Part shown: piece after piece, positions 2,750 to 57,211 of the stretch
Layout of the letters: the number at the start of each line of letters is the position of its first letter
Numbering within the stretch: the stretch's first letter is position 1
Virus record (IMG/VR): IMGVR_UViG_3300023184_000081
Coordinates: 16,242-80,241 of that record
Strand: one strand, 5' to 3'
Length of the DNA stretch: 64,000 bases
Source: a virus
The notes under the pieces: generated by a model
Databases searched by the model: none
What the model was told of the DNA's origin: nothing
Seen by the model: the letters and a program-made list of their open reading frames with translations, nothing else
Position numbers and translations under genes: made by a program

Positions 2750-5251
2750 TTGAGCAAATTCTATACATCAGCTATTCTATGGGGAGATAATGTTCTTGTT
2801 CGTGGGTATGATGACGACGGAGCATTCTCCAAAAAGATACACTACAAACCGAAACTATTCGCTCTAGCTAAAACTAAATCAGCTGCGACTTGGTCGAGCA
2901 TTGAAGGACTACCTCTAGAACCAATAGAGTTTGATTCAGTCACTGAAGCTAAAAACTTCATCGAAAATTATAAAAATGTTACAGGGTTTCCTATCTATGG
3001 ATTTTCTAGATATGAATATGCGTGGCTGAATGAAGAATATCGAAATGAAGTTGTATACGATGTTGATAGAATTCGTGTCGCTAATATCGATATCGAAGTA
3101 TACTCTGGAAACGGATTTCCGAATGTAAGTTCTGCGAGTGAAGAAATTACTGCAATCACACTTAAGAAAGACAAAATTTTCTATGTGTTTGGCTGTAATA
3201 ATTATGAGCCTGAACGTGACGATGTAAAATATATTCATTGTAAGAATGAAAGGCATCTATTGAAGGCGTTCTTAGATGAATGGGAACGCTACGGCGCTCC
3301 CGATATTCTGACTGGATGGAATATATCTTTCTTCGATATTCCATATCTAGTCAATCGTATTCGTCAAGTTCTTGATGAAAAAGAATGTAAACGTCTTTCG
3401 CCATGGAAGCATATAAATGAGAAGACGACTAAATTCATGGGAAAAGAACATACATTAATAACAATCGTTGGTGTTGCAGTTCTTGATTATCTTGAGATGT
3501 ATAAGAAGTTCACATACACTCAGCAAGAATCTTATCGTCTAGATCATATAGCATTCACTGAACTTGGTGAAAAGAAATTAGATTTTCACGAACTGGGTTA
3601 CGAAACTCTTCATGAATTTTATGAAAACGATTTCGTTAATTACATCAATTATAATATTCGAGATGTTGAGCTTGTAGATAAACTAGACGATAAGATGAAA
3701 CTTATTGAGATGGTTTTAACTCTAGCATATGACGCCAAAGTCAATATGGCTGATACTTTCACGCAAGTTAAGATGTGGGATGTTATCATTCATAATCATC
3801 TATATAAAAAGAATATTGCTATTCCGCTTTCTGGAGGAGGTCATAAGTCCGAACAATTTATTGGTGCTTATGTTAAGGATCCACAAGTCGGATCGAGCGA
3901 TTGGGTAATATCATTCGACTTGAATTCATTGTATCCACACTTGATCATGCAGTATAATATTTCTCCAGAAACTATGCTGAAGGGTAAGAAGGCAGATATA
4001 TCTATTGATCACTTCTTGAGTGATAAACCACTTCCTCTTATCGATGGATATTGTCTTGCACCAAATGGAAGCTATTTTAAAAATGATAAGCAAGGATTCC
4101 TTCCTGAAATTATGGAAAGGCTCTATGCAGATAGAACGATCTATAAAGAGAAGATGATTGTTTCTCAAAAGAAATATGAAGTAGCAAAAACTCCAGAAGA
4201 GAAGAAAAAGTATTCTAAAGAAATATCACGTTTCAAGAATATGCAGTTGGCTAGAAAAGTGCAATTGAATTCTGCTTACGGCGCGATTGGTAATCAGTAT
4301 TTTAGATTCTTTGACATAGATCACGCAACTGCAATTACCATGGGCGGACAGTTAGCTATTCGTTGGGCAGAAAATCATTTGAACATCTATATAAATAGAT
4401 TGTTAAAAACAAATGAAATCGATTATGTTATTGCATCCGATACGGACAGTCTATACATTACTTTTGGTAGGCTTGTGCAGAGTGTTTTTAAAGATAGAGA
4501 CAACATTTCAAAAGAAAGAATTGTCGAATTCTTGGATAGGATTGCACGCGAGAAATTTGAACCTGTTATTGATGATATTTACCAGAGACTTGCTGAAAGA
4601 TGCAGTGCTTTCCAACAGAAAATGAACATGAAGCGAGAGGTTATCGCTGATAGAGGAATATGGACAGCTAAAAAAAGATATATTCTAAACGTGTATGATA
4701 GTGAGGGTGTTCGTTATGCAAAACCTAAACTGAAGATGATGGGCGTCGAAACAGTTAAATCATCCACTCCGTCTAGTTGTAGAGCAGCATTGACAGAGTC
4801 TTTGAATATTATCATGAATAATAGCGAAGAACGAATGCAAGAATATATCAAAGAGTTTAAGAAGAAATTTAAAACTCTACCGTTTGAGGATATATCGTTT
4901 CCAAGAAGTGTTCAGAATGTTCAATTCTATTCTAAGGAAACGAAAGCTATACCGATTGCAGTCCGAGGTGCGATTACATTCAATAAGGCTCTCAAAGATT
5001 TTAAACTAACAAAAAAATATGAGTCGATTAAAGATGGCGAGAAGATAAAATACTGCTATATGAAGATGCCAAATCCATTGCATGAAAATATTTTATCTAT
5101 TGTATCCATTCTTCCTAAAGAATTTAAAATCAATGCATATGTGGATTACGATTTGCAATTCGAAAAGGCGTTTCTTGATCCATTGCGATCAATATTAAAT
5201 GTGATTCACTGGAAAGAAGAACCGATTGCATCTCTAGAAAACTTTTTTTAA
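2750..5251 (+). CDS. 43: family B DNA polymerase (T4 gp43 type)
   Basis: 833 aa, the replicative polymerase with proofreading. The exonuclease domain shows the DxE motif in NIDIEVYS (about residue 114), a second motif around GWNISFFDIP, and YNIRDVELV as the third. Polymerase motif A is DLNSLYPHLIMQYN, motif B is KVQLNSAYGAIGN and motif C is ASDTDSLYI with both catalytic Asp. Length is near that of T4-like marine phages (T4 is 898). The start is TTG at 2750, preceded by TTGGA; no better ATG precedes the conserved N-terminus. It has its own early promoter and is followed by small genes with short gaps. No intein or intron is visible. Confidence 0.97.
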   Translation: MSKFYTSAILWGDNVLVRGYDDDGAFSKKIHYKPKLFALAKTKSAATWSSIEGLPLEPIEFDSVTEAKNFIENYKNVTGFPIYGFSRYEYAWLNEEYRNEVVYDVDRIRVANIDIEVYSGNGFPNVSSASEEITAITLKKDKIFYVFGCNNYEPERDDVKYIHCKNERHLLKAFLDEWERYGAPDILTGWNISFFDIPYLVNRIRQVLDEKECKRLSPWKHINEKTTKFMGKEHTLITIVGVAVLDYLEMYKKFTYTQQESYRLDHIAFTELGEKKLDFHELGYETLHEFYENDFVNYINYNIRDVELVDKLDDKMKLIEMVLTLAYDAKVNMADTFTQVKMWDVIIHNHLYKKNIAIPLSGGGHKSEQFIGAYVKDPQVGSSDWVISFDLNSLYPHLIMQYNISPETMLKGKKADISIDHFLSDKPLPLIDGYCLAPNGSYFKNDKQGFLPEIMERLYADRTIYKEKMIVSQKKYEVAKTPEEKKKYSKEISRFKNMQLARKVQLNSAYGAIGNQYFRFFDIDHATAITMGGQLAIRWAENHLNIYINRLLKTNEIDYVIASDTDSLYITFGRLVQSVFKDRDNISKERIVEFLDRIAREKFEPVIDDIYQRLAERCSAFQQKMNMKREVIADRGIWTAKKRYILNVYDSEGVRYAKPKLKMMGVETVKSSTPSSCRAALTESLNIIMNNSEERMQEYIKEFKKKFKTLPFEDISFPRSVQNVQFYSKETKAIPIAVRGAITFNKALKDFKLTKKYESIKDGEKIKYCYMKMPNPLHENILSIVSILPKEFKINAYVDYDLQFEKAFLDPLRSILNVIHWKEEPIASLENFF

Positions 5252-5259
5252 GGATTAAT

Positions 5260-5631
5260 ATGACCACCCACGCAGTAGTTCCCGCAGAGTATCTTTCATT
5301 GGATTATGGATTTTCGGCTGTTGATGAAAGTGCTATAAAGCCAATTGAGTCCATATCGACGACAGAACAAGCTATTCCTTCTCAGGATATTCAACGTCTT
5401 GAAGAAAAAATAGACGCGCTTACTTCACTAGTATTTCAATTGGAACAACGTGGAGACGAAAATATAACTGAAGCGCAGTTGAAAGATAAGATACACAAAC
5501 TAGAACAGATTATCGTTCCGCTTCTAAATAATCTTTTAAAGACTGCAGATAAGGAATATATCTTATGGCCGAATCGTGGTCCAATAGTTCAAAAACAATT
5601 GGATGCAGTATTAGCTATTACAAGAGGCTAA
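5260..5631 (+). CDS. conserved small phage protein with coiled coil
   Basis: 123 aa. A Ser/Glu-rich N-terminus is followed by a coiled coil (IQRLEEKIDALTSLVFQLEQ) and a conserved-looking C-terminus with EYILWPNRGPIVQKQ. This WPNR ending recurs in hypothetical proteins of T4-like marine phages as I recall them. AAGGATTAATATG gives a good ribosome site. It lies 8 bp after gp43 and abuts the PP-loop gene. Function unknown. Confidence 0.7.
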   Translation: MTTHAVVPAEYLSLDYGFSAVDESAIKPIESISTTEQAIPSQDIQRLEEKIDALTSLVFQLEQRGDENITEAQLKDKIHKLEQIIVPLLNNLLKTADKEYILWPNRGPIVQKQLDAVLAITRG

Positions 5632-6450
5632 ATGATTGATAAGTTACTATGTAATGAGATACAGAAAAATTCTAAATCAGGATCTGTAGCTGTTTTAATG
5701 TCTGGTGGTGTTGATAGTATTTCTTGCGCTTTCTCTGCACATAGATTAGGTAAGAAAGTTCATGTGTATACGTTTCATTTAGAAAACGATCCTTCATATG
5801 ATGCAATAAAGGCTATTGAAGTTGCAAAGATCATGAATTGGGATTATACTTTAACTGAAGTTCCTACTAAAAATCTCGAGAGTGATTTTATACATCTAGC
5901 TACAGATATCAAATGCAAAAAGAAGACTCATTTTGAATGCACATTTCCATTTCTATATGTATATCCGAAGATAAAAGAATCTGAGGTAATTTCTGGAATT
6001 GCAGCTGATGGTCATTATGGAGTTTCTAAGAAAGCGTGTATTCATTACAAATCACCAAAATGTAAATTCGATGAATTCCGTATAGATTATTTTTCACAAA
6101 AAAATCCTGCAGGATTGATTCAACAAAAAATTCTAGCTAAACAATATGGTAAGAAATTCATTGCTCCTTATTTAGAATCAAATGTAATTGATTTCTTTCG
6201 ACGGTATGATTGGTATGAATTGAATAAACCATTTCAAAAACATCATGTAGTGAATTCTTTTCCTGAATTTAAAGAAATAGGTAAGTTTAAGAAACATATT
6301 AATCTTCAATTAGGTTCAAACATAGATAAATTATTTGAAACTCTTTTAGAAAACGATAGAATCAATTTCAAGAAACGAATTCGAGTTATGGATATATGTC
6401 GCGATTGGAGTAAATTAGGTAAAAGTTTATATGAAGATCAAAATCAATAA
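5632..6450 (+). CDS. PP-loop ATPase, asparagine-synthetase-like
   Basis: 272 aa. Residues 19-30 carry the PP-loop LMSGGVDSISC, diagnostic of adenine-nucleotide alpha hydrolases that adenylate a substrate and release PPi. The following strand (VHVYTFHLENDPSYDA) fits the same fold. No glutaminase domain is present, so nitrogen would have to come from free ammonia or another nucleophile. The family includes asparagine synthetase C-terminal domains, QueC and TilS; this one looks closest to the asparagine-synthetase type. It overlaps the next gene by 20 bp. The substrate is unknown; a role in base or tRNA modification is possible. Confidence 0.8.
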   Translation: MIDKLLCNEIQKNSKSGSVAVLMSGGVDSISCAFSAHRLGKKVHVYTFHLENDPSYDAIKAIEVAKIMNWDYTLTEVPTKNLESDFIHLATDIKCKKKTHFECTFPFLYVYPKIKESEVISGIAADGHYGVSKKACIHYKSPKCKFDEFRIDYFSQKNPAGLIQQKILAKQYGKKFIAPYLESNVIDFFRRYDWYELNKPFQKHHVVNSFPEFKEIGKFKKHINLQLGSNIDKLFETLLENDRINFKKRIRVMDICRDWSKLGKSLYEDQNQ

Positions 6451-34208: not shown

Positions 34209-34267
34209 AGTTGTATATTAAATGGTAGCACAAGCAGTAACTGCTCTTTAAAAATTTGGAAAATAGT

Positions 34268-34342
34268 GTCCTGTTTGACTTCTGGTGAGGTCACCACCCT
34301 TTCACGGTGGCAAGAGGGGTTCGAATCCCCTACAGGACGCCA
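34268..34342 (+). tRNA. tRNA-Glu (TTC)
   Basis: Acceptor GTCCTGT/ACAGGAC, anticodon stem CCACC/GGTGG with loop CTTTCAC, T-loop TTCGAAT, encoded CCA. First gene of the array. Confidence 0.93.
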
Positions 34343-34513
34343 TATTGAAGCGCATTATTGTCTATTTCGGCGTTCCTCCGATGGGTCAGAGTGTTTATAT
34401 AGACACCCTGATAAGGAAAACAGTATCCATTGACAAGATATTGGTAGTGCGTTTCAATATGGTAACATGCAACAGCATGAGAGTAACGTGATACTGGCCA
34501 GTAAGCGTTCGGA

Positions 34514-34591
34514 CATGCAATATCTCAAAGCGGAAAGTCATGAGTCCGTAGAGAAAAAGATTTCGGTTCGATTCCGAATTGCGTGTGACCA
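34514..34591 (+). ncRNA. tRNA-like RNA without a D-arm (possible decayed tRNA-Met)
   Basis: CATGCAA pairs with TTGCGTG as an acceptor-like stem. TCTC/GAGA and CGGA/TCCG form one long arm whose loop AAGTCATGAG contains CAT. A perfect T-arm follows (TTCGG TTCGATT CCGAA). There is no D-arm, and the acceptor is followed by TGACCA rather than N-CCA. A second CATGCAA at 34466 and pairing of AATATGGT (34456-34463) with ACCATATT (34588-34595) suggest a larger fold. The 170 bp before it hold no other recognised gene. Confidence 0.4.
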
Positions 34592-34597
34592 TATTAC

Positions 34598-34671
34598 GCG
34601 GGATTAGTTAAATGGTATAATTAGAGTTTTCCAAACTCCAGTCATCAGTTCGATTCTGATATTCCGCTCCA
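34598..34671 (+). tRNA. tRNA-Gly (TCC)
   Basis: Acceptor GCGGGAT/ATTCCGC, loop TTTCCAA gives anticodon TCC, T-loop TTCGATT, CCA encoded. Confidence 0.9.
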
Positions 34672-34680
34672 TTTGTTGTT

Positions 34681-34753
34681 GGGGATTAGTTAAATGGTAT
34701 AACCGCGGATTTTGATTCCGCTATCACAAGTTCGATTCTTGTATCCCCTGCCA
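34681..34753 (+). tRNA. tRNA-Gln (TTG)
   Basis: Acceptor GGGGAT/ATCCCC, anticodon stem GCGGA/TCCGC with loop TTTTGAT, T-loop TTCGATT, CCA encoded. Confidence 0.9.
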
Positions 34754-34783
34754 GAAAATTTTATTTAACAGAAAGGAAATTGT

Positions 34784-34816
34784 ATGAAGCGAAAATCCAA
34801 AACACGCAAGACATAG
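34784..34816 (+). CDS. possible 10-aa basic micro-ORF inside the tRNA array
   Basis: ATG AAG CGA ... TAG encodes MKRKSKTRKT with a good ribosome site (AAAGGA 7 nt upstream); the stop runs into the first base of tRNA-Lys. It is the only stretch in the array with a clear Shine-Dalgarno. It may be an unused by-product or a true small basic peptide. Confidence 0.3.
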   Translation: MKRKSKTRKT

Positions 34817-34892
34817 GGAGTGTGGTGTAAAGGCTTGCACAACGGACTTTTAATCCGCTAAGAGTTAGGTTCGATTCCTACCACTCCCACCA
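34816..34892 (+). tRNA. tRNA-Lys (TTT)
   Basis: Acceptor GGGAGTG/CACTCCC, loop CTTTTAA gives TTT, T-loop TTCGATT, CCA encoded. Confidence 0.93.
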
Positions 34893-34966
34893 TATGAAAA
34901 CACATTCTTTAAGGTCTTGGTCGTTACCAGCCTGGCAAAAACGACGACAGAGTGTGTTTCCATATA
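34891..34966 (+). ncRNA. long hairpin RNA between tRNA-Lys and tRNA-Ser
   Basis: The 18-nt arms 34891-34908 and 34949-34966 pair almost completely. Inside, GTCGTT/AACGAC and CCAG/CTGG form further stems. It begins in the CCA of tRNA-Lys. It is not a tRNA (no T-arm); it may direct processing of the array transcript. Confidence 0.5.
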
Positions 34967-34975
34967 GTAGAAAAA

Positions 34976-35067
34976 GGAGAGTAATGCAGCGGGGTTGGTC
35001 CTGCGACCAGCCTTGAAAACTGGGTTCTGAGAAATCGGATGGGGTTCGACTCCTCTGCTCTCCGCCA
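34976..35067 (+). tRNA. tRNA-Ser (TGA)
   Basis: Acceptor GGAGAGT/GCTCTCC, loop CTTGAAA gives TGA, long variable hairpin TCTGA-GAAA-TCGGA, CCA encoded. Confidence 0.88.
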
Positions 35068-35073
35068 ATTTTT

Positions 35074-35149
35074 GACTCGTTAGCTCAATCGGAAGAGCAC
35101 ATGCCTGTCACGCATGAGGTAAGGGGATCGAAACCCCTACGGGTCGCCA
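35074..35149 (+). tRNA. tRNA-Asp (GTC)
   Basis: Acceptor GACTCGT/ACGGGTC, stem CATGC/GCATG with loop CTGTCAC, T-loop ATCGAAA, CCA encoded. Confidence 0.92.
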
Positions 35150-35157
35150 AGAATTAC

Positions 35158-35251
35158 GGAGATTTGGCTGAGCATGGTTTAAGGCAGCGGATTGCTAATC
35201 CGTCGATCGAGGAAACTTGATCCATTGGTTCGAATCCAATAATCTCCGCCA
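35158..35251 (+). tRNA. tRNA-Ser (GCT)
   Basis: Acceptor GGAGATT/AATCTCC, loop TTGCTAA gives GCT, long variable arm, T-loop TTCGAAT, CCA encoded. Confidence 0.92.
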
Positions 35252-35265
35252 GAATTAAAAGTTTT

Positions 35266-35361
35266 GCTCCCCAGCACTCGGCGTGCGGCATGCCCTTATA
35301 AAGCGTGGAGACTGGTCAGATAGGCTGGAACGGGAAGGTTCAAAACCTTCGGGGAGTACCA
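35266..35361 (+). tRNA. class II tRNA with anticodon TAT, identity uncertain
   Basis: 96 nt. Acceptor GCTCCCC/GGGGAGT, T-arm GAAGGTTCAAAACCTTC, CCA encoded. The anticodon arm ATGCC/AGCGT with loop CTTATAA gives TAT (Ile, AUA). However, it has a long variable hairpin (CTGGTC/GGCTGG), normal only for Leu, Ser and Tyr, and an odd D-arm. Amino acid not decided. Confidence 0.6.
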
Positions 35362-35366
35362 AATTT

Positions 35367-35444
35367 GGTGAGGTGGCAGAGTGGTCAAATGCAAGAGCCT
35401 GCAAAACTCTAAAATCGTCGGTTCGAATCCGACCCTCACTTCCA
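35367..35444 (+). tRNA. tRNA-Cys (GCA)
   Basis: Acceptor GGTGAGG/CCTCACT, loop CTGCAAA gives GCA, discriminator T as usual for Cys, CCA encoded. Confidence 0.9.
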
Positions 35445-35449
35445 AACTT

Positions 35450-35524
35450 GCCCTGTTAGTTCTAGTGGTAAAACGTCGGTTTTGTAATCCGAATTCGGGT
35501 GTTCGATTCACCCACGGGGCACCA
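35450..35524 (+). tRNA. tRNA-Thr (TGT)
   Basis: Acceptor GCCCTGT/ACGGGGC, loop TTTGTAA gives TGT, T-loop TTCGATT, CCA encoded. Confidence 0.9.
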
Positions 35525-35531
35525 AAGAAAT

Positions 35532-35624
35532 GGAAGTATTGATGCTATGGCGTGTGCATCCCGAGACTGTAAATCTCGTCCCTCAGGGTAAACATTACTG
35601 GTTCGACTCCAGTTACTTCCACCA
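35532..35624 (+). tRNA. tRNA-Tyr (GTA)
   Basis: Acceptor GGAAGTA/TACTTCC, stem CGAGA/TCTCG with loop CTGTAAA, long variable arm, CCA encoded. Confidence 0.93.
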
Positions 35625-35631
35625 GATTTAT

Positions 35632-35706
35632 TCCTCGATAGCTCAGCGGTAGAGCAGTTGACTGTTAATCAATTGGTCCGTGGTTCGATCCCACGTCGAG
35701 GAGCCA
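35632..35706 (+). tRNA. tRNA-Asn (GTT)
   Basis: Acceptor TCCTCGA/TCGAGGA, loop CTGTTAA gives GTT, T-loop TTCGATC, CCA encoded. Confidence 0.93.
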
Positions 35707-35715
35707 GTATCAAAA

Positions 35716-35791
35716 CGGTGTGTAGCTCAGCTGGTAGAGTGCGTGGTTTGGGACCATGAGGTCGGGAGTTCGAAACTCTCCACACCGACCA
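35716..35791 (+). tRNA. tRNA-Pro (TGG)
   Basis: Acceptor CGGTGTG/CACACCG, stem CGTGG/CCATG with loop TTTGGGA, T-loop TTCGAAA, CCA encoded. Confidence 0.92.
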
Positions 35792-35796
35792 GAATT

Positions 35797-35883
35797 GCAA
35801 GTGTGATGGAACAGGTATACATAAGAGACTTAAAATCTCTCGCTCGCAAGGGCATGCGGGTTCGATTCCCGCCACTTGCACCA
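35797..35883 (+). tRNA. tRNA-Leu (TAA)
   Basis: Acceptor GCAAGTG/CACTTGC, stem AGAGA/TCTCT with loop CTTAAAA, long variable arm, CCA encoded. Confidence 0.93.
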
Positions 35884-35899
35884 TAGTGATTCAGTATTT

Positions 35900-35975
35900 G
35901 GGGGTGTAGCTCAGTTGGGAGAGCGTATGCTTTGCAAGCATAATGTCGTCGGTTCGATCCCGTCCATCTCCACCA
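35900..35975 (+). tRNA. tRNA-Ala (TGC)
   Basis: Acceptor GGGGGTG/CATCTCC with two G-T pairs, stem TATGC/GCATA with loop TTTGCAA, CCA encoded. Confidence 0.92.
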
Positions 35976-35983
35976 GATTTAAT

Positions 35984-36057
35984 GCCTCGGTAGTTTAACG
36001 GTAAAACGCCATCCTTACACGGTGGATTCGGGAGTTCAACTCTCCAACGAGGTACCA
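35984..36057 (+). tRNA. tRNA-Val (TAC)
   Basis: Acceptor GCCTCGG/ACGAGGT (last pair weak), stem CCATC/GGTGG with loop CTTACAC, CCA encoded. Confidence 0.88.
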
Positions 36058-36066
36058 AAAAGTTTT

Positions 36067-36143
36067 GCCCCGGTGACGGAATTGGCATACGTGTCGGTCT
36101 TAGAAGCCGAATTTTAGGAGTTCGAGTCTCCTCTGGGGCACCA
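36067..36143 (+). tRNA. tRNA-Leu (TAG) with short variable arm
   Basis: Acceptor GCCCCGG/CTGGGGC, stem TCGGT/GCCGA with loop CTTAGAA gives TAG. Only 77 nt: the D-arm is Leu-like but the variable region is about 6 nt instead of the long arm expected for Leu. Confidence 0.8.
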
Positions 36144-36205
36144 TAAGTAACTGCATTGGTAAGGAAAGACAATGTTCATAGACTCTCGAGGGAATATGTT
36201 CATAC

Positions 36206-36221
36206 CTCCGCTGCAGCGGAG
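36206..36221. repeat. 16-bp perfect palindrome between tRNA genes
   Basis: CTCCGCTGCAGCGGAG is fully self-complementary. The 162-bp gap it lies in also has two copies of ATGTTCATA and, at about 36250-36270, a hairpin GGGGAT/ATCTCC with loop TTTAGAC that looks like the anticodon arm of a lost tRNA-Leu. Confidence 0.5.
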
Positions 36222-36305
36222 AAAAGGAGGATGGGCAAGCGATGATTTGGGGATTTTAGACATCTCCTCTAGCTGGATACCCCACCTGCCAGTGCAGTTT
36301 CTTAT

Positions 36306-36381
36306 GGTAATGTAGCATAGTGACTAATGCAGTTCCTTCATACGGAAAAGATCGTTGGTTTGAGTCCAACCATTACTACCA
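36306..36381 (+). tRNA. tRNA-Met (CAT), elongator type or Ile-lysidine type
   Basis: Acceptor GGTAATG/CATTACT, loop TTCATAC gives CAT, T-loop TTTGAGT, CCA encoded. It has a normal first base pair, so it is not the initiator. Met or (if C34 is modified to lysidine) Ile cannot be separated by sequence reading. Confidence 0.85.
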
Positions 36382-36388
36382 AATTTTT

Positions 36389-36465
36389 GCGCCCATAGCT
36401 CAGTGGATTAGAGCCAACGGTTTCTACCCGTTAGGTCGGCAGTTCGAATCTGTCTGGGCGCACCA
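36389..36465 (+). tRNA. tRNA-Arg (TCT)
   Basis: Acceptor GCGCCCA/TGGGCGC, stem AACGG/CCGTT with loop TTTCTAC, CCA encoded. Confidence 0.93.
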
Positions 36466-36471
36466 GTATTT

Positions 36472-36547
36472 ACCATCTTAGCTCAGCGGTAGTAGCAGTG
36501 TGTTGATAACGCATTGGTCAGTGGTTCGATCCCACTAGATGGTACCA
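36472..36547 (+). tRNA. tRNA-Ile (GAT)
   Basis: Acceptor ACCATCT/AGATGGT, loop TTGATAA gives GAT, T-loop TTCGATC, CCA encoded. Confidence 0.92.
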
Positions 36548-36552
36548 AATTT

Positions 36553-36626
36553 CTCGGTGTAGTATAATGGCATTACGGCAGCCTCCAAATCTGCTTATGG
36601 GAGTTCGATTCTCTCCGCCGGGGCCA
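36553..36626 (+). tRNA. tRNA-Trp (CCA)
   Basis: Acceptor CTCGGTG/CGCCGGG, loop CTCCAAA gives anticodon CCA, discriminator G as usual for Trp, 3' CCA encoded. Confidence 0.88.
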
Positions 36627-36628
36627 AT

Positions 36629-36704
36629 ATCTCTATAACTCAGCGGACAGAGTTCTTCGGTCCTAACGAAGCGGTCGCAAGTTCGAATCTTGCTAGGGAT
36701 GCCA
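36629..36704 (+). tRNA. tRNA-Arg (CCT)
   Basis: Acceptor ATCTCTA/TAGGGAT, stem CTTCG/CGAAG with loop GTCCTAA, CCA encoded. Confidence 0.9.
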
Positions 36705-36709
36705 GTTTT

Positions 36710-36787
36710 AGATGGAGAGCTAGTCTGGTGATTCAGCGCGTGCCTGAAGAGCATGAGAACTCAGTTCGATTCTGAGTCCATCTACCA
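36710..36787 (+). tRNA. tRNA-Phe (GAA)
   Basis: Acceptor AGATGGA/TCCATCT, stem CGTGC/GCATG with loop CTGAAGA, CCA encoded. Confidence 0.92.
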
Positions 36788-36796
36788 AAGAACAAT

Positions 36797-36870
36797 GGTG
36801 TTGTTAATGTAATGGTTGCATAACTGTCTGTGAAACAGTTAGAGAGGGTTCGATTCCCCACTTCACCCCA
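36797..36870 (+). tRNA. tRNA-His (GTG)
   Basis: Stem ACTGT/ACAGT with loop CTGTGAA gives GTG. The 5' extra G faces discriminator C, the tRNA-His identity pair. Acceptor has two T-T mismatches. CCA encoded. Confidence 0.88.
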
Positions 36871-36878
36871 ATAAATAT

Positions 36879-36955
36879 CGGTCCTTAACTCAATTGGATA
36901 GAGTGCCAGTCTTCGAAACTGGAGGTTGGGAGTTCGAGTCTCTCAGGATCGGCCA
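36879..36955 (+). tRNA. tRNA-Arg (TCG)
   Basis: Acceptor CGGTCCT/AGGATCG, stem CCAGT/ACTGG with loop CTTCGAA, CCA encoded. Last gene of the array. Confidence 0.92.
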
Positions 36956-48206: not shown

Positions 48207-48563
48207 ATGAAAAAAGATAAATCTATTTGTCATTTTTGCGGTGAGATTCAAAATGATTTGCGGTGTCCTAGAAACATATGTGGTGATTTAACTATACAGG
48301 TGAGATATATGACAAGAAACGAGATCTATGATTTGGCACGCAGTAATATTATTTCAGTAACGTTCACCAAGAAAGACGGCGAAACACGAACGATGAAATG
48401 CAGTCTCAAAGATGAATATATAGTTAGTGAAGAGAAAAAAGAATCGACTTCGGTTCGTAAACCTAATGACGAAGTTCTTGCTGTTTGGGATCTAGATAAG
48501 AGCGCATGGCGTTCGTTTCGTATTGAATCTGTGAAAGGTGTGGAAATATGGGAACAAAATTAA
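48207..48563 (+). CDS. DUF2693-like protein with N-terminal zinc motif
   Basis: 118 aa. N-terminal CHFCGEIQNDLRCPRNIC is a four-Cys zinc-type motif; the rest, VTFTKKDGETRTMKCSL and VWDLDKSAWRSFRIESV, matches the DUF2693 small beta domain of phages. Possibly nucleic-acid binding. Confidence 0.75.
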   Translation: MKKDKSICHFCGEIQNDLRCPRNICGDLTIQVRYMTRNEIYDLARSNIISVTFTKKDGETRTMKCSLKDEYIVSEEKKESTSVRKPNDEVLAVWDLDKSAWRSFRIESVKGVEIWEQN

Positions 48564-49555
48564 ATATTACTGGTATTATGGAAGAAGCTGAGAGTATCGA
48601 ACCTGCAGCAGATGGAACGTATACTAATCTAGGATCCGCTGGTGGAACTGAGATGATGATGGCTGGTCTTCGTGAGAGAGTATCATCAGAACTCCTAGAT
48701 CAATTCAATTTCATCTGCTCTCGATATCGTCCAGAAAATCTTAGCAAAGATAAAAAGAATATCCTCTGGCTGCACGACACTTGGGACGACCCCGAGAGTG
48801 AACATCTCTCTAAGAAAGAAAATCGTAAGAAATTTTCTAAACTTGTTTTCGTATCACACTATCAGCAAGCAACTTTCAACATGGGTCGTAATGTAGATTT
48901 TGCAGACGGTATTGTTATGCAGAATGCTATTGTTCCGATTCCAGAATTTGAAAAGACTAAGAAACATATCAATCTAATCTATCATACAACTCCACATCGC
49001 GGTCTGGAACTTCTGATTCCTGTATTCGAAAAGCTGTGTGAAGCGATGCCAGATGTCGATTTGAATCTAGATGTGTATTCTTCGTTCAACATCTACGGTT
49101 GGCCAGCACGTGACGAACCATACAAAGAATTGTTCGCACGTTGCACAAAACATCCGAACATAAATTATCACGGATATCAGCCAAACGATGTAGTTCGTAA
49201 AGCGTTGCAAGCCGCTCATATCTATGCATATCCGAATATCTGGCCGGAAACATCTTGCATTTCAGTGATTGAGGCGATGTCTGCCGGATGTTCTGTAGTT
49301 TGCCCAAATTTCGGAGCATTACCAGAAACCTGTGCAAATTTCGCAACAATGTATCCATTCATCGAAAACAATAATGCGCACGCAAATATGTTTGCCAGAG
49401 TTCTGATGATGGCTATCAGAAATCACTGGGATGAGAATAATCAGAATAAACTCAAATTTCAAAAACTGTATTTTGATAATTTCTATAATTGGGATGTGCG
49501 AGCATCGCAATGGGAATCACTTTTGAAGGGTATTTTGAGCCAAAATAAACCTTGA
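48548..49555 (+). CDS. GT4-type glycosyltransferase
   Basis: 335 aa. WLHDTWDDPE, VFVSHYQQATF and the C-terminal donor site ETSCISVIEAMSAGCSVV with PNFGALPE (Glu-x7-Glu) are typical of GT-B family 4 enzymes. It may glycosylate a surface polymer or modified DNA bases. It overlaps the previous gene by 16 bp and is followed by an early promoter. Confidence 0.85.
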   Translation: MGTKLNITGIMEEAESIEPAADGTYTNLGSAGGTEMMMAGLRERVSSELLDQFNFICSRYRPENLSKDKKNILWLHDTWDDPESEHLSKKENRKKFSKLVFVSHYQQATFNMGRNVDFADGIVMQNAIVPIPEFEKTKKHINLIYHTTPHRGLELLIPVFEKLCEAMPDVDLNLDVYSSFNIYGWPARDEPYKELFARCTKHPNINYHGYQPNDVVRKALQAAHIYAYPNIWPETSCISVIEAMSAGCSVVCPNFGALPETCANFATMYPFIENNNAHANMFARVLMMAIRNHWDENNQNKLKFQKLYFDNFYNWDVRASQWESLLKGILSQNKP

Positions 49556-51741: not shown

Positions 51742-52161
51742 ATGATAAAAAGTCTTGCTGAAATGATTGATGAAATCGAGAAACAAAAAAATGCCGCATC
51801 TCAAACAAAACTTCTTAAGAAGTATGCCTCAGCTGCAATGAAAGCTGTTGTTGGCTATGCGATGGATCCTGGTGTTAAGTTCCTTCTTCCACCGTCCGAT
51901 CCGCCGTTTCGTCCAATGCCAGATGGATCAGATGCGCAAGGTCGTCTTATTGCAGATCACAGGAAATTTATTTACTTTGTAGATTCTCCAGATGGCAGAG
52001 GCATTAGCGCACTTAAACGCGAACAGATGTTCATTCAGATGTTAGAAACTCTAGATGTTCGTGATGCACAACTGTTGCTTCGGATTAAAAATAAAAAACT
52101 CACGATTAGAATGGACGCGGTAAAAGCTGCATTCCCGTCTCTAACTGCAAAGTGGAAATGA
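51742..52161 (+). CDS. DUF6433-like conserved phage protein
   Basis: 139 aa. KSLAEMIDEIEKQK, VGYAMDPGVKFLLPPSDPP and LKREQMFIQMLETL with AFPSLTAKW follow the DUF6433 pattern of T4-like phages. TGGAG ribosome site. Probably transcribed from the late promoter in front of the tRNA. Function unknown. Confidence 0.8.
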   Translation: MIKSLAEMIDEIEKQKNAASQTKLLKKYASAAMKAVVGYAMDPGVKFLLPPSDPPFRPMPDGSDAQGRLIADHRKFIYFVDSPDGRGISALKREQMFIQMLETLDVRDAQLLLRIKNKKLTIRMDAVKAAFPSLTAKWK

Positions 52162-52757
52162 GCAATAATCCGGCTTTTATCATTGGTAATGGTGAAAGCC
52201 GTAGGAATTTTGATCTAAATGATATAAAGGGTGTTGCTCCTATTTACGGATGTAATGCTCTTTATAGAGATTTCTCTCCAGACTGGCTAGTAGCAGTCGA
52301 TGAGGGAGTCATTGATGAAATAAATTCTTCCAATTTTCCTAAAGAATCTACACTATTCCCTAGATCAAAAGCTGAAGAATACGAACCAGCAGATATGCAT
52401 CCAGGCAGAAACAGATATCCTAGAAACAATTCTGGTATGTATGCCATGCAGCGAGCAATAGAAAAAGATCATAATGTTTTACTGTGCCTAGGATTTGATT
52501 TTCTGATCAATGACAGCTATCTTTCTTGCACAAATTTGTTTGCTGGGACTAAAAATTACGGCGCAGAAACTCATGCGAATTTTGAAGATAATGCTGGACG
52601 GATTCATTATCTTGAATGGTTTGCAAGAAAGAATAAAGATGTTGTTTTTATTTTCGTTCTTGAAGATCTATTCCCAAAAGTTCCAATTGGCGCAAAAAAT
52701 ATTTTCACAATACCATACAGAACTTTAAAATTGAACATACATAGAGACAGTCAATAG
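52158..52757 (+). CDS. glycosyltransferase/MptE-like phage protein
   Basis: 199 aa from ATG 52158 (ATGA overlap). PAFIIGNGESRRNFDL and GCNALYRDFSPDWLVAVD resemble the Rossmann core of DUF115/MptE-like proteins that occur in glycan clusters; NSGMYAMQRAI and VLLCLGFDF follow. The role is not certain; it directly precedes the DNA-modification island. Confidence 0.65.
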   Translation: MSNNPAFIIGNGESRRNFDLNDIKGVAPIYGCNALYRDFSPDWLVAVDEGVIDEINSSNFPKESTLFPRSKAEEYEPADMHPGRNRYPRNNSGMYAMQRAIEKDHNVLLCLGFDFLINDSYLSCTNLFAGTKNYGAETHANFEDNAGRIHYLEWFARKNKDVVFIFVLEDLFPKVPIGAKNIFTIPYRTLKLNIHRDSQ

Positions 52758-52772
52758 CATTGGAATTATATT

Positions 52773-54134
52773 ATGACGAAGCAGATAGTATTAAGTGAAC
52801 AGATTGACTGTGAGCATTTGTTAGGTAAATTTCTAGATCATGACGCATACAATTATATTGTTAATGAAGATTGTGACGTGTATAAGCCATTGGGTCCTGG
52901 CGAAAGTCCTCACGAAAATAATTGTCTTTTGAAGTTTCGTAAGAACGTATTTCCTAAGAGCATTACAGACCCTGCATATATTGGATTGCGGGAGGGTGCT
53001 AGTCAATCTGATAACCGTGGTCTTGCTGCTGGAACTCATCGCGATGAATTTCAGATAATGCCAACCGAAACTGGACATGGTAAACGTCGATGGGTAACCA
53101 AACTAGAAAAAGCTATCATCAATTATTTTTTGGCTGGGTCACCAGTATCTGCGTCAGGTGGAGATCAGGTACCTGATATTTTGCGTGAGACATCTAATGA
53201 TCCATTAGAAGGACGAGGAGCCACTGGAGGCGGCAATATTAAAGGTGGATCTATTTGGATTGTAAAGAAAACCACAGAGTTTGATTTTACAGAATGGATG
53301 AATTCCACAAAAGAATTGTCTAGAGAAGATAGAAAGAAGTCTGCTATTGAAGTTCGCAAGTTGATATCAGATACATCTTATGGTAATTCTGTCTACTCTG
53401 GAACGGCTGGATATTTTGATCGTTATCCGCGTATTCCTTTTTGCAGAGAAACTGCTTGGAGTGCCGCAAATGCAGATCTATTCCAAAAAGGATATCCTCT
53501 ATTCGAAGCAGCATCTGATGTATTCAAAGACAATTTTCCGATCAGATGGAATGGACAGAATGACTCTGTTAAGAAACTGAAAGATCCTGGCTGGCGTATT
53601 GGTAATTCAGTTTACACGACCATAACGATCAATAAAGATTTCAGAACAGCTTGTCATAGAGATGCTGGAGATCTATGCGAAACAGAACGAATTAATCTTC
53701 CCGCAGGATTTAGTAATCTCACAGTATTGAGCGATGGAAAGAACTTTGATGGTATGTATCTATGCATGCCAGAGTATAAAGTTTGCGTAGATGTGAAACC
53801 GGGCGATCTATTGCTTATGGATGCTCATCAGATTCATGGCAACGTTCCTCTGATCTCATCAGATGAAGGATTTGAAAGAATTTCTGTTGTTATGTATTTC
53901 AGATCATCTATGTTAGATTGTTCTTCTGTTGAACAAGAAAATCTTCGTAGAAAATTTGTTTATGCAAGAAAAGATAATAACAGTCATGATCAATGGCACG
54001 AAGGTTGGAATGGAGTGTCAGCTGGAATGTGGGAAACTAAAGAATGGTCCGACTATCTAAGCAATAATGGATTTCCAGAAGAAGCGTCTAAAGTATCTAA
54101 GAGTGAAAATATAAGCGTTTTGGACTTCCTATGA
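52773..54134 (+). CDS. TET/JBP-like 2-oxoglutarate Fe(II) dioxygenase
   Basis: 453 aa. The catalytic core at about residues 290-370 shows FRTACHRDAGDL (HxD iron ligands), GFSNLTVLSDGK, GDLLLMDAHQIHGNVP (distal His) and ERISVVMYFRS (Arg for 2-oxoglutarate), in the order of the TET/JBP family. The N-terminal part with YFDRYPRIPFCRETAWS is shared with phage members. It would oxidise 5-methylcytosine to hydroxymethylcytosine, or thymine to hydroxymethyluracil, in DNA. The next three genes overlap in series and look like later steps. Confidence 0.9.
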   Translation: MTKQIVLSEQIDCEHLLGKFLDHDAYNYIVNEDCDVYKPLGPGESPHENNCLLKFRKNVFPKSITDPAYIGLREGASQSDNRGLAAGTHRDEFQIMPTETGHGKRRWVTKLEKAIINYFLAGSPVSASGGDQVPDILRETSNDPLEGRGATGGGNIKGGSIWIVKKTTEFDFTEWMNSTKELSREDRKKSAIEVRKLISDTSYGNSVYSGTAGYFDRYPRIPFCRETAWSAANADLFQKGYPLFEAASDVFKDNFPIRWNGQNDSVKKLKDPGWRIGNSVYTTITINKDFRTACHRDAGDLCETERINLPAGFSNLTVLSDGKNFDGMYLCMPEYKVCVDVKPGDLLLMDAHQIHGNVPLISSDEGFERISVVMYFRSSMLDCSSVEQENLRRKFVYARKDNNSHDQWHEGWNGVSAGMWETKEWSDYLSNNGFPEEASKVSKSENISVLDFL

Positions 54135-54916
54135 AAATCTATGCTACAGCTACCATATGTGGAAAATGGAAGCTTCCATTCTATATTCCATTGGTTGATG
54201 AAGATAAGACATCAAAGCATGAACGATCATACATGCATTATGTTTCTCAGCATTCCGATCTTGTAGCTGCAAAATGTAATGCTACAGAATGGCTGCTTGG
54301 TGGGATTCTACCTATAGATTGCAAGCTAGTTGTTAGAGAATATTTTGGTGGTGCTGGAATAATGTCCACCATAATTCGAGGCATGTTTGAAGTGAACTCA
54401 CATTATATTGGAGAGCGTGATAAACAGTGCGTGATTCAATTAGAGAAAGCATTTCCACAAGCTATTTGTGAAGAAGCTGATGCTTTAGAATCCATGACTA
54501 GAAGTGAATATGCAGATATAGATATGTTGGATTTTCCATCGTCTAGTATTATTCACACAAAGCGCGCAGGTCAAAAATGGACAAATGGATTTGAAAAAGT
54601 CCTATCACGAAAACCAAATGCGATTATATGGACTGATACATCTGTAACATATCCTATATCAATTCATGGTTCTAGATACGAAACAGAAATTGGTGGACCG
54701 ATTACAACTCAGAGTGAATATCTGATGCGCTATTCGGAGTGGCTCTACAATACACATGGATATTCTATTTGCAGAGCAGCATATCGCGCGCGCAATGCGG
54801 TCTATCTTCTAGCTCAGCCAGGAGCATTTTACTTAGAAGAAAAACATTTTCCTATCATTGGAAATGAGAATGGATTTGTTATGGATAATGTTAAATCTAT
54901 ATTGGATTTTGTATGA
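54131..54916 (+). CDS. Rossmann methyltransferase-like protein of the modification island
   Basis: 261 aa, ATGA overlap upstream. VVREYFGGAGIMSTIIRG resembles SAM-binding motif I, then GERDKQCVIQLEKAF and MLDFPSSSIIHTK at the motif IV position. The PC catalytic dipeptide of cytosine-C5 methyltransferases is absent (FPSS), so a C5 reaction is unlikely. It could act on a modified base. Assignment is moderate. Confidence 0.65.
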   Translation: MKIYATATICGKWKLPFYIPLVDEDKTSKHERSYMHYVSQHSDLVAAKCNATEWLLGGILPIDCKLVVREYFGGAGIMSTIIRGMFEVNSHYIGERDKQCVIQLEKAFPQAICEEADALESMTRSEYADIDMLDFPSSSIIHTKRAGQKWTNGFEKVLSRKPNAIIWTDTSVTYPISIHGSRYETEIGGPITTQSEYLMRYSEWLYNTHGYSICRAAYRARNAVYLLAQPGAFYLEEKHFPIIGNENGFVMDNVKSILDFV

Positions 54917-56064
54917 TCAATGTAGACTCAACGCATCCAATAGGAAATTGGTGTAATCTAAATAAAGTGGCTGAGGTTACAGATCTAAAGAAGGGAATGG
55001 ACTTTAGACTACCAAAATATCGTAGAGAAGTCTTCATGCGATTCTATGAGTTTCATCTACAGAATAGAAGTCATCCTGGTGGCGTATACTTTATGTTTCC
55101 ATGGCTGCAGAAGAAATATAATCTGGATAATGAACAGATGTTGTGGATGACATTCATCAATGGTATGAGTCAGCATATAGTTACAACATGGATGCTTTTT
55201 GAAAAGTTTCCAACATTCAGATCTGATCCAGATCTTATGCAGAAATATATCAGAGACAACTGGGCTCAGCTTGGTTGGGATATGGATAGACGTTATGTTA
55301 AGAATAAATTCGGAAAAGCTCTAGAATGCTATCAGAAGTTGATAGGTAAAAAAACTCAAATCGAATATTGGAATGGTCTGTGCAACACAACTGATGAGAA
55401 ACAGAACTTCAGAAATTGCTGGACAACTGTAATGACTGAATTTCATTACTTCGGTAGATTGTCATCATTCAGTTATCTAGAATATCAGAGGATCGTTGGA
55501 CTGAATATAGATTGTGATCGTCTGTTTCTAGAAGATATGAGTGGAAGTAAATCGCATAGAAATGGTCTAGCTGTAGTTCTTGGTCGTGATGATTTAGACT
55601 GGCATGATAAACTCAATCCGGATTTTCAGGGATATACACCAGATCATATATCTTGGCTGCAGTCACAAGGAGAAGCCCTTCTGATAGAAGCACAAGAAAG
55701 ATTCAAAGATAAAGAATACCTCAAGGATGTTTCCTATTTTACATTAGAGTCTACGCTTTGTTGCTACAAGAGCTGGCATAGAAAGAATAGACGATATGCT
55801 AATGTGTATATGGATATGTTCCATGATCGTATCAAAAAAGCTGAGGCTGCATCACAAGGCAATTATGATTTTTCATTATTTTGGGATGCACGAAAAGAGA
55901 ATCTTCCTGAGCATCTATTATTAGAATGTGTAGAATCTGATCCAGGATTATGTCCAGAAAAACAAAATCATTATCGCGATACTGGACAGGTCATTATGAT
56001 GGATAAGATGTGGTCGTGTTTTGAAAATAACTTTAATAAATCTGGTCTGAGGGAGTTTCTGTGA
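54913..56064 (+). CDS. 5-hmU DNA kinase helical-domain / AGPT-Pplase-like protein
   Basis: 383 aa. MRFYEFHLQNRSHPGGVYF, then MLWMTFINGMSQHIVTTWM and LFEKFPTF match the DNA-glycosylase-like helical domain found in 5-hydroxymethyluracil DNA kinases and alpha-glutamyl/putrescinyl-thymine pyrophosphorylases of hypermodifying phages. The P-loop kinase comes as a separate gene immediately after (GTG overlap), which in other phages is fused or adjacent. Reader/positioning or transferase function is inference. Confidence 0.75.
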   Translation: MINVDSTHPIGNWCNLNKVAEVTDLKKGMDFRLPKYRREVFMRFYEFHLQNRSHPGGVYFMFPWLQKKYNLDNEQMLWMTFINGMSQHIVTTWMLFEKFPTFRSDPDLMQKYIRDNWAQLGWDMDRRYVKNKFGKALECYQKLIGKKTQIEYWNGLCNTTDEKQNFRNCWTTVMTEFHYFGRLSSFSYLEYQRIVGLNIDCDRLFLEDMSGSKSHRNGLAVVLGRDDLDWHDKLNPDFQGYTPDHISWLQSQGEALLIEAQERFKDKEYLKDVSYFTLESTLCCYKSWHRKNRRYANVYMDMFHDRIKKAEAASQGNYDFSLFWDARKENLPEHLLLECVESDPGLCPEKQNHYRDTGQVIMMDKMWSCFENNFNKSGLREFL

Positions 56065-56606
56065 AAAAAATTATTGCTCTTGGTGGCGAACCTGCAACTG
56101 GTAAGACAACATTGATGTGGAGAATTATTGATAGCGCAACAGATTGGCAGAAGATTGAACCAAAGAAAACTCTTTCAGCAATTCGTTCAGAATCTCTCGA
56201 TCTAACCATACTGGGTAAGTATGATCGAGGCCTCGAATTCGCAGGAACAGATCGTCTATCAATGAGTGTTCAACCTGCAGCTACAGAGTTCATCAAAGAA
56301 GCCACAGGAAATATTCTATTTGAGGGAGATAGGTTATTCAATAGAAAATTCATCGACGCTATCATATCGTGCAATTGTCTATTCTCTCTAATCTATATTG
56401 AAGCGAGTCGCAATGAGCTTCAAAATCGACATATCGATCGAAAAGACACACAGACAGAAACGTTCCTTAAGAGTAGGCAAACTAAGTATAGCAATATCGT
56501 AAGGAGTTTAGATCTTATGGATATCATTCATACATTCAAGAATGATAATATGGATCAGCAGACAATTATTTACGATTTTATAAGAGCAAATATATTTAAT
56601 AAATAG
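56061..56606 (+). CDS. P-loop kinase of the modification island
   Basis: 181 aa, GTG start overlapping the previous stop. Walker A ALGGEPATGKTTLM (about residues 6-19); ILFEGDRLFN holds an Asp-containing strand, and SRNELQNRHIDRKD an Arg-rich lid. Fits a small nucleotide or base kinase; with the helical-domain neighbour it is a good candidate for 5-hydroxymethyl-pyrimidine DNA kinase. Confidence 0.8.
   Translation: MKKIIALGGEPATGKTTLMWRIIDSATDWQKIEPKKTLSAIRSESLDLTILGKYDRGLEFAGTDRLSMSVQPAATEFIKEATGNILFEGDRLFNRKFIDAIISCNCLFSLIYIEASRNELQNRHIDRKDTQTETFLKSRQTKYSNIVRSLDLMDIIHTFKNDNMDQQTIIYDFIRANIFNK
56598..56605 (+). promoter_or_regulatory. possible late promoter AATAAATA
   Basis: AATAAATAG overlaps the kinase stop codon; ATG 56611 lies 6 nt after it, as at the 10557 late promoter. 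Confidence 0.4.
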
Positions 56607-56610
56607 CATT

Positions 56611-56808
56611 ATGAAAACAGCTAAACTTCCAATTTATTCTTTAGATACAGTTCTTGTAGAAGGTTGGTTCATACGCTGCTCTATAATGAAGGGCAACATA
56701 CTTGTTGTTATGTTGAATTCAATAACTGAAGAATGTCGGATTGGCTTTTTTAAAACTGAAAAAAAAGCCAATCGTTTTGTGAATGATATAATATATGCTC
56801 TCGGATAA
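56611..56808 (+). CDS. small protein of unknown function
   Basis: 65 aa. Beta strands (VLVEGWFIRCSIMKGNILVVML) then a helix with KTEKKANRFVND. 14-bp overlap with the next gene. No Shine-Dalgarno is visible. Confidence 0.6.
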   Translation: MKTAKLPIYSLDTVLVEGWFIRCSIMKGNILVVMLNSITEECRIGFFKTEKKANRFVNDIIYALG

Positions 56809-57211
56809 AATAAAATCTCTGCCCCATTCTGGAAGAACGCTACAAGATCATCTAAATGGAACTGCTGATATACTACGTTATTGGCTCTGTTCTGATGACG
56901 TTGTCAATGCAGGTCTGTATCACTCAGTCTACGGAACTTCAAGCTATAAGAATATAGCTACAACAAACAGAGATGAAGTTATCGCTCTGATCGGCGTATA
57001 TGCAGAATCTCTTGTGTATACATTCTGTAACACGAATCACAATAGAATGCTTCATTTTATTGAAAATCGAAATAAAGAATTGATTTTAGTAGAATGTGCT
57101 AATCTCATGGAACAGAAAAGCAGAAATTTTCAGATATTAGAAAAGGCAGTAGACTATGTTCCAAAATACATCGGAGACGATATAGGTTTCTACATAATGG
57201 ATAATCACTGA
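56795..57211 (+). CDS. DUF6817/HD-like protein
   Basis: 138 aa. LPHSGRTLQDHLNGTADIL and CSDDVVNAGLYHSVYGT resemble the DUF6817 family, whose His/Asp pattern (H...DH...H) recalls HD hydrolases. It may hydrolyse a nucleotide or phosphate intermediate of the modification pathway; this is a guess from position. Confidence 0.75.
   Translation: MLSDKIKSLPHSGRTLQDHLNGTADILRYWLCSDDVVNAGLYHSVYGTSSYKNIATTNRDEVIALIGVYAESLVYTFCNTNHNRMLHFIENRNKELILVECANLMEQKSRNFQILEKAVDYVPKYIGDDIGFYIMDNH

Follow-up and report, generated by a model that had tools for sequence, protein, structure and literature searches.

A TET-family oxygenase operon predicted to hypermodify thymine in the DNA of a T4-like phage

Thymidine hypermodification in Salmonella phage Vi01 and Pseudomonas phage M6, as Lee et al. 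reportedly described in 2018 and 2022, combines a dUMP hydroxymethylase with a 5-HMUDK, an AADT and PLP or radical SAM enzymes. The locus considered here raises the question of how hypermodifying phages with no nucleotide hydroxymethylase obtain the hydroxymethyl group. The answer proposed, which can be tested, is that a TET oxygenase probably oxidizes thymine in situ. The window (the whole stretch of DNA analysed, 64,000 nucleotides of an 80-kb viral contig from IMG/VR) contains four plus-strand genes at 52773-56606, neighbours sharing four bases each (ATGA, ATGA and GTGA overlaps), and a flanking gene:

52773..54134, + strand: TET/JBP-type 2-oxoglutarate/Fe(II) DNA oxygenase (TET), 453 aa, Tet_JBP 2e-15; predicted thymine 5-hydroxylase
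54131..54916, + strand: class I SAM methyltransferase-fold protein (X); predicted to methylate the amino-acid adduct or a group close by
54913..56064, + strand: amino acid:DNA transferase (AADT), PF18724 5e-18; predicted to exchange phosphate for an amino acid at the 5-hydroxymethyl group
56061..56606, + strand: P-loop kinase (Ploopntkinase3), PF18751 3e-10; predicted to act as the 5-hydroxymethyl-pyrimidine DNA kinase in systems that use TET
56795..57211, + strand: DUF6817 (HD-like) protein, PF20680 3e-22; flanking, outside the module

The genes lie where a first-pass annotation of this DNA had placed them, and the four overlapping frames, the TET/JBP-like dioxygenase with a complete HxD...H...R motif and the P-loop kinase that it described were all borne out. 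The oxygenase scores 56.8 bits against the Tet_JBP profile, for which the curated cut-off is 34.9, and its catalytic residues (H295, D297, H355 and R369) are invariant across 25 relatives. Comparison of the single sequence with the PDB gave nothing informative; profile and fold searches worked, and the top 26 PDB matches returned by Foldseek for the model (mean pLDDT 76) were all TET2, CcTet, NgTET1 or CMD1. The protein is also 37-38% identical to proteins of Cr30 and DLP_6 that carry the annotation 'SNF2'. The kinase has the Walker A motif GEPATGKT. Phages of Mycobacterium, Microbacterium and Methylophilales have homologues of it near TET; in the TET phage Cr30 the homologue lies at a different place in the genome. 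The product of the gene at 54913, initially taken for the helical domain of a 5-hmU DNA kinase, is instead an AADT, 40% identical to Mycobacterium phage gene 3 and 25-28% identical to the AADTs of Ackermannviridae; a profile search of the entire contig found no match to the helical domain itself (HMUDK_hel, PF18723).

X, correctly described from the outset as a methyltransferase-like Rossmann protein, gave an AF2 model (pLDDT 88) whose Foldseek matches are Trm1/RsmD-type class I SAM methyltransferases. Searched by sequence against the PDB it found RNA methyltransferases only, all weakly, and its family has no convincing PHROG match and none in Pfam or NCBIfam. Residues E70, G74, G76, D97, D134 and P136 are invariant; the Pro-Cys motif of C5-methyltransferases is missing, which rules out X as an enzyme of that kind. 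The family was found in 59 IMG/VR loci, AADT being the next gene in 38 of 40 testable distinct copies, and no homologue was found in 50,697 phage records or in bacterial genome contigs. As the searches of phage isolates and bacterial genomes gave no copy, the function assigned to X is drawn from context and fold, from which it is predicted to represent a new methyltransferase family that modifies the adduct or a neighbouring group. Motif IV is D-x-P-x-S-S in the TET clade, whereas it reads DFPFF or DFPYF in the TET-less clade and in locus L032; X may therefore have other chemistry or be inactive.

The TET-X-AADT-kinase order is seen again in dozens of uncultivated phages, in contigs whose proteins are 34-92% identical, a recurrence far beyond chance, and so is the more general order TET-X/PLP-AADT-kinase; in six contigs the PLP and AADT genes are fused. 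Here TET, AADT and Ploopntkinase3 stand together in one operon, the combination known from actinophages as ParB-TET-AADT-kinase (Mycobacterium VioletZ and Heath; Rhodococcus Tonitrus, PMC11955845). The route to the kinase step had been called unusual; it is less so than claimed, since these sets occur in cultured actinophages, one of them annotated as thymidine hypermodification (PMC11955845).

The company that AADT keeps in different phages points to the source of the hydroxyl group. On the 80-kb contig, probably an incomplete genome, ThyX is present and intact and no hydroxymethylase (PF00303) was found, in keeping with the earlier reading of a normal ThyX and no nucleotide hydroxymethylase. 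All seven AADT phages sampled from the Ackermannviridae/Vibrio group, in a comparison of few lineages, encode a thymidylate-synthase-family hydroxymethylase and no TET, and HMUDK_hel is present in each of the four tested. The phages VioletZ, Heath and Cr30 and the large contig G001, which have TET and AADT, contain no hydroxymethylase and no C5-methyltransferase; the thymidylate synthase of Cr30 is a canonical ThyA (373 bits), and HMUDK_hel is absent from VioletZ, Cr30 and G001, as it is here. Five X-AADT contigs are TET-less, and every one encodes both HMUDK_hel and a hydroxymethylase in which the uracil-type Asn occupies the position of Asp179 in T4 dCMP hydroxymethylase; in L126 the genes for these two proteins adjoin those for PLP, X and AADT. 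PLP1 of the TET loci, which elsewhere occupies the slot of X, is 47% identical to PLP enzymes of Ackermannviridae (Vi01-like). Close relatives whose TET is 90-92% identical carry either a glycosyltransferase or a GATase-amidoligase cassette in place of X-AADT-kinase, which is what one would predict were TET to provide the same hydroxyl handle for all of them. DUF6817 is retained in L013 and L014, where a glycosyltransferase stands in place of X-AADT-kinase, and thus probably does not belong to the module; the family had been named correctly in the first-pass annotation, and its inclusion in the island is unsupported. From this comparative evidence thymine is most likely the substrate of TET here, and is favoured over 5mC.

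We put the probability at roughly 0.7 that the locus is a thymine hypermodification operon acting on DNA after replication, in the order TET, kinase, AADT and X. TET would act on thymines in phage DNA, hydroxylating their methyl groups to give 5-hydroxymethyluracil, the Ploopntkinase3 protein would phosphorylate the hydroxymethyl group to phospho-5hmU, the phosphate would be displaced by an amino acid through AADT, and X would transfer a group from SAM, most probably to the adduct. Better-known phages produce the altered base ahead of DNA replication. Here TET and Ploopntkinase3 would stand in for the two enzymes that serve Vi01-like phages, the dUMP hydroxymethylase and a 5hmU-DNA kinase of the HMUDK type, with the AADT portion of the pathway common to both. 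The idea of an island in which hydroxymethylation occurs on DNA itself, with kinase and transferase steps following, is retained from the first-pass annotation; the choice between thymine and 5mC, which it left open, is tilted by the comparison towards thymine. The modification probably serves to conceal the DNA of the phage from restriction by its host.

One could argue instead that a C5-methyltransferase makes 5mC, that TET converts it to 5hmC and that the kinase, AADT and X decorate this base. Phage TETs acting on 5mC are said to have been reported from experiment by Burke et al. (PNAS, 2021), and Methylophilales phage Melnitz has a C5-methyltransferase, TET, ParB and a kinase homologue in a row, the first of these without the CmoX Arg, so that the TET-kinase pair may work on 5mC in that phage. 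The present contig also encodes one C5-methyltransferase homologue, which was first adopted as support for 5mC and dropped once it was recognized as CmoX-like, as part of the following set:

5632..6450, + strand: CmoY homologue (ATP-dependent amide ligase), 51% identity over 267 aa to S-B43 CmoY
contig 4038-5252, outside the window: CmoX homologue, 51% identity, SPPC motif, Arg378 equivalent to SpCmoX Arg350
contig 5249-5932, outside the window: CmoA homologue, 48% identity, TIGR00740 6e-32, below the curated cut-off

The features of a CmoA-CmoX-CmoY system (the SPPC Cys, the Cx-SAM Arg and the ligase) are thus all present at 48-51% identity, and for wild-type SpCmoX Cx-SAM is the sole accepted donor (PMC12783734); by homology, the CmoX-like protein of the contig is predicted to use Cx-SAM too. 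The only C5-methyltransferase homologue on the contig adjoins cmoA, with cmoY elsewhere, and looks like a CmoX carboxymethyltransferase, so that it is probably not a maker of 5mC; as the contig is probably incomplete, a true 5mC methyltransferase or a hydroxymethylase could lie in the missing part. As complete TET-AADT phages are without a C5-methyltransferase, and X and AADT are found next to a uracil-type hydroxymethylase as well, we regard the 5mC route as unlikely. Judged by its gene content, the phage probably modifies cytosine separately, through CmoA-CmoX-CmoY, to 5-glycylcarboxymethylcytosine (5-carboxymethylcytosine-glycine); the GC-dinucleotide odds of 1.16 carry no signal for or against CmoX.

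Could the two systems meet on one base, TET oxidizing the CH2 of CmoX-made 5-carboxymethylcytosine and the kinase and AADT decorating the alpha-hydroxy product? The CmoA, CmoX and CmoY homologues do share a contig with the TET operon, and CmoX-CmoA contigs close to the present phage come from the same metagenomes as its TET relatives. Such crosstalk is nevertheless very improbable: VioletZ, Heath, Cr30 and G001 have TET-AADT-kinase without C5-methyltransferase homologues, CmoY is predicted to use up 5-carboxymethylcytosine, and we know of no TET that acts on such a base. There is likewise only a slim chance that the operon serves a target other than DNA bases, such as tRNA or protein. The nearest folds of X include tRNA and rRNA methyltransferases and the window holds ~25 tRNA genes, but TET and AADT belong to families of DNA-base enzymes, and in other phages X-AADT forms part of a genuine 5hmU-DNA operon.

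Thymine hypermodification initiated by TET is thus the preferred reading of the operon. A broader picture, to which we give somewhat better than even odds, is that two bases are modified after replication, each by way of a chemically distinct handle. Thymine would receive a hydroxyl from TET, followed by the action of kinase/AADT and methylation by X, and cytosine in GC steps would receive a carboxyl from CmoA/CmoX, to which CmoY would add glycine. In this picture TET and a separate kinase family are a general replacement of the nucleotide-level hydroxymethylase/HMUDK front end, one that feeds interchangeable tailoring cassettes. A single phage may accordingly carry both hypermodified cytosine and hypermodified thymine, of which, to our knowledge, there is no description. 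If correct, these proposals would make such phages an extensive supply of thymine-hydroxylating TETs; they would also yield a second kinase family, the new methyltransferase family X and modular DNA-tailoring cassettes that could serve as DNA-labelling tools.

Compared with Synechococcus phage S-B43 (PMC12783734), the contig has the same three Cmo homologues with the key Cys and Arg, but ~16 kb separates cmoY from cmoXA, which are neighbours in S-B43, and the contig has a separate TET operon in addition. With phage TET systems that convert 5mC to 5hmC it shares a TET-family oxygenase on DNA followed by tailoring enzymes; it differs in that no 5mC-type methyltransferase was found and thymine is the predicted substrate. 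AADT (PF18724) and phosphorylation by a P-loop kinase are held in common with Vi01 and M6, whose PLP enzyme recurs in loci related to the present one. In contrast to those phages, the present contig, probably incomplete, has neither a hydroxymethylase nor HMUDK_hel, hydroxymethylation being assigned to TET on DNA; the kinase comes from another family, Ploopntkinase3, and X replaces or joins the PLP enzyme. The TET-AADT-kinase order is that of the actinophage sets, but here X is present, ParB is absent and the module is carried by a T4-like phage of the cyanophage/Kyanoviridae type (DNA polymerase 50% identical).

The contig (80,241 bases in IMG/VR, of which 16242-80241 form the window) derives from a phage whose DNA polymerase is approximately 50% identical to those of T4-like cyanophages. 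It carries an operon in which four genes are joined by 4-base overlaps (ATGA, ATGA and GTGA), an arrangement that at the sequence level indicates translational coupling.

Genes of the operon (window coordinates)
52773-54134: TET, oxygenase; Tet_JBP 2e-15; catalytic H295, D297, H355, R369
54131-54916: X; class I SAM methyltransferase fold (AF2 model, pLDDT 88)
54913-56064: AADT, amino acid:DNA transferase; PF18724 5e-18
56061-56606: P-loop kinase; PF18751 3e-10; Walker A GEPATGKT

The enzyme families, the TET and kinase catalytic motifs, their conservation and the replacement patterns described below are likewise evident from sequence. The four TET catalytic residues are invariant in 25 relatives, and the best 26 PDB matches to its AF2 model (mean pLDDT 76) are TET2, CcTet, NgTET1 and CMD1. 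The first-pass annotation had correctly recognized a TET/JBP-like dioxygenase with a complete HxD...H...R motif, a methyltransferase-like protein, a P-loop kinase, the gene overlaps and a normal ThyX. The protein it described as the helical domain of a 5-hmU DNA kinase, however, is the AADT; that helical domain (HMUDK_hel, PF18723) was not found by HMM search of the contig, which is probably incomplete. Upstream of TET, a GT4 glycosyltransferase (48548-49555) and a weakly sialyltransferase-like protein (52152-52757) are kept in close relatives, and 23 predicted tRNA genes are densely arrayed at 34267-36955.

We propose that TET would convert T into 5hmU in DNA, which would then be phosphorylated and subsequently substituted with an amino acid. 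X would add a methyl group, although the group it methylates is a guess. By analogy with known hypermodified phages the modification may have an anti-restriction role.

The same TET-X-AADT-kinase order is seen in dozens of IMG/VR contigs, at protein identities as low as 35-45%, and is not due to chance. Among 45 distinct X copies in IMG/VR, where fragments are short, AADT directly follows X in 38 of the 40 testable, and TET lies directly upstream in 19/23; among the exceptions are a TET-less clade and two loci where the kinase-TET pair is inverted. X matched no Pfam or NCBIfam family, none of 50,697 phage records and none of the bacterial genome contigs searched. Between TET and AADT, other loci have a PLP enzyme (fused to AADT in L042, L044, L046, L047, L050 and L051), both X and PLP (L031 and L032) or no gene (L029, L052 and L053). 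X retains the SAM-site glycines; its motif IV reads D-x-P-x-S-S within the TET clade, whereas the TET-less clade and L032 have DFPFF/DFPYF, and thus the target of X may differ between the two clades.

The identity of the modified base was explored by comparing AADT phages. A divergent thymidylate-synthase-family enzyme occurs in all seven Ackermannviridae/Vibrio AADT phages sampled, none of which contains TET or a C5-MTase; the four tested all have HMUDK_hel and lack Ploopntkinase3. The TET- and AADT-containing set, comprising the complete phages VioletZ, Heath and Cr30 and the 173-kb contig G001, lacks the divergent hydroxymethylase and C5-MTases, and the Cr30 ThyA is canonical (373 bits). 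HMUDK_hel was not found in VioletZ, Cr30 or G001; the kinase is of the Ploopntkinase3 kind in VioletZ and G001, and was assigned to it in Cr30 solely by similarity to the window kinase. Most absences derive from HMM searches that included positive controls. Since the phages compared represent few lineages, this replacement pattern, though strong, does not amount to a formal independent test.

X-AADT also occurs without TET in five contigs (L126-L130), all containing HMUDK_hel and a thymidylate-synthase-family gene. Asn or Asp at the position of Asp179 in T4 dCMP hydroxymethylase separates the dUMP from the dCMP enzymes of the family, and these five hydroxymethylases have the uracil-type Asn. 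In L126 (5027-10259) PLP, X, AADT, the 5hmdU-DNA-kinase P-loop, HMUDK_hel and the hydroxymethylase lie in a row; the related L127 has two copies of X. The PLP enzyme of TET loci shares 47% identity with its counterpart in Ackermannviridae, a group in which phage Vi01 has 5-NeOmdU (PMC6449724). The replacement pattern, the TET-less X loci and the likeness of the PLP enzymes together argue that, at its AADT end, this is the thymidine pathway, and that TET and Ploopntkinase3 would substitute for the front end. The ordinary ThyX of the contig is consistent with oxidation on DNA.

It could be argued that TET acts instead on 5mC. No 5mC maker was found on the probably incomplete contig, and its sole C5-MTase homologue is CmoX-like, retaining SPPC and an Arg378 aligned to SpCmoX Arg350.

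Cmo homologues
Contig 4038-5249 (outside the window): CmoX; 51% identity to S-B43 CmoX (PDB 8YF3, 3e-113)
Contig 5249-5929 (outside the window, directly after CmoX): CmoA; 48% identity; TIGR00740 6e-32, yet under that model's curated cut-off
Window 5632-6450: CmoY; 51% identity to S-B43 CmoY

In the system described in PMC12783734, CmoX carboxymethylates C in GC steps with Cx-SAM as the donor; the wild-type enzyme does not accept SAM, and CmoY attaches glycine. Thus, the phage is predicted to carry 5-glycylcarboxymethylcytosine. The metagenomes with close TET relatives also contain homologues closely related to this CmoX and adjoined by CmoA. In Methylophilales phage Melnitz-3 (L065:4010-8090), however, TET stands in a row of four genes, after a C5-MTase that lacks the CmoX Arg and before a ParB-like gene and a P-loop kinase homologue. 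Thus, TET and the kinase may work from 5mC there, with 5mC to 5hmC to phospho-5hmC as a possible pathway. Melnitz is a possible counter-case to a universal thymine rule.

Among close relatives whose TET is 90-92% identical, the gene next after TET begins X-AADT-kinase in L007-L009, is a GT4-type glycosyltransferase in L013 and L014, and is a GATase in L015 and L016. The glycosyltransferase (L013:5313-6650; likewise L014) replaces X-AADT-kinase in an otherwise syntenic locus, and L016 adds an amidoligase-like gene, GNAT, a ParB-like gene and a divergent AADT and kinase to the GATase. In 80 further, mostly more distant TET loci the same cassette types return, some with sugar-nucleotide genes. 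If TET supplies a common hydroxyl handle, one would expect just this combination of a constant oxygenase and exchangeable amino-acid, amidoligase or sugar cassettes. A GT4-type gene also directly follows TET in L132, L152 and L203-L207. In L016, L024 and L150-L201 TET is followed by GATase, the amidoligase-like gene, sometimes GNAT and the ParB-like gene, with AADT and kinase coming last. We know of no description of this tailoring cassette.

ParB-TET-AADT-kinase sets are already present in cultured actinophages, and that of Tonitrus is annotated as thymidine hypermodification (PMC11955845). Public annotations of TET and P-loop kinase homologues include 'SNF2 DNA repair protein', 'queuine tRNA-ribosyltransferase', 'terminase small subunit' and 'HicA-like toxin' (L080:1595-2179; KU682439, KF301602, MG450654, NC_055860). 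As far as could be checked, the X family, the replacement of hydroxymethylase/HMUDK by TET/kinase, cassette exchange around one TET and the predicted co-occurrence with the CmoA-X-Y cytosine system are new, although some of this may already be contained in Iyer et al. 2013 and Lee et al. 2018/2022.
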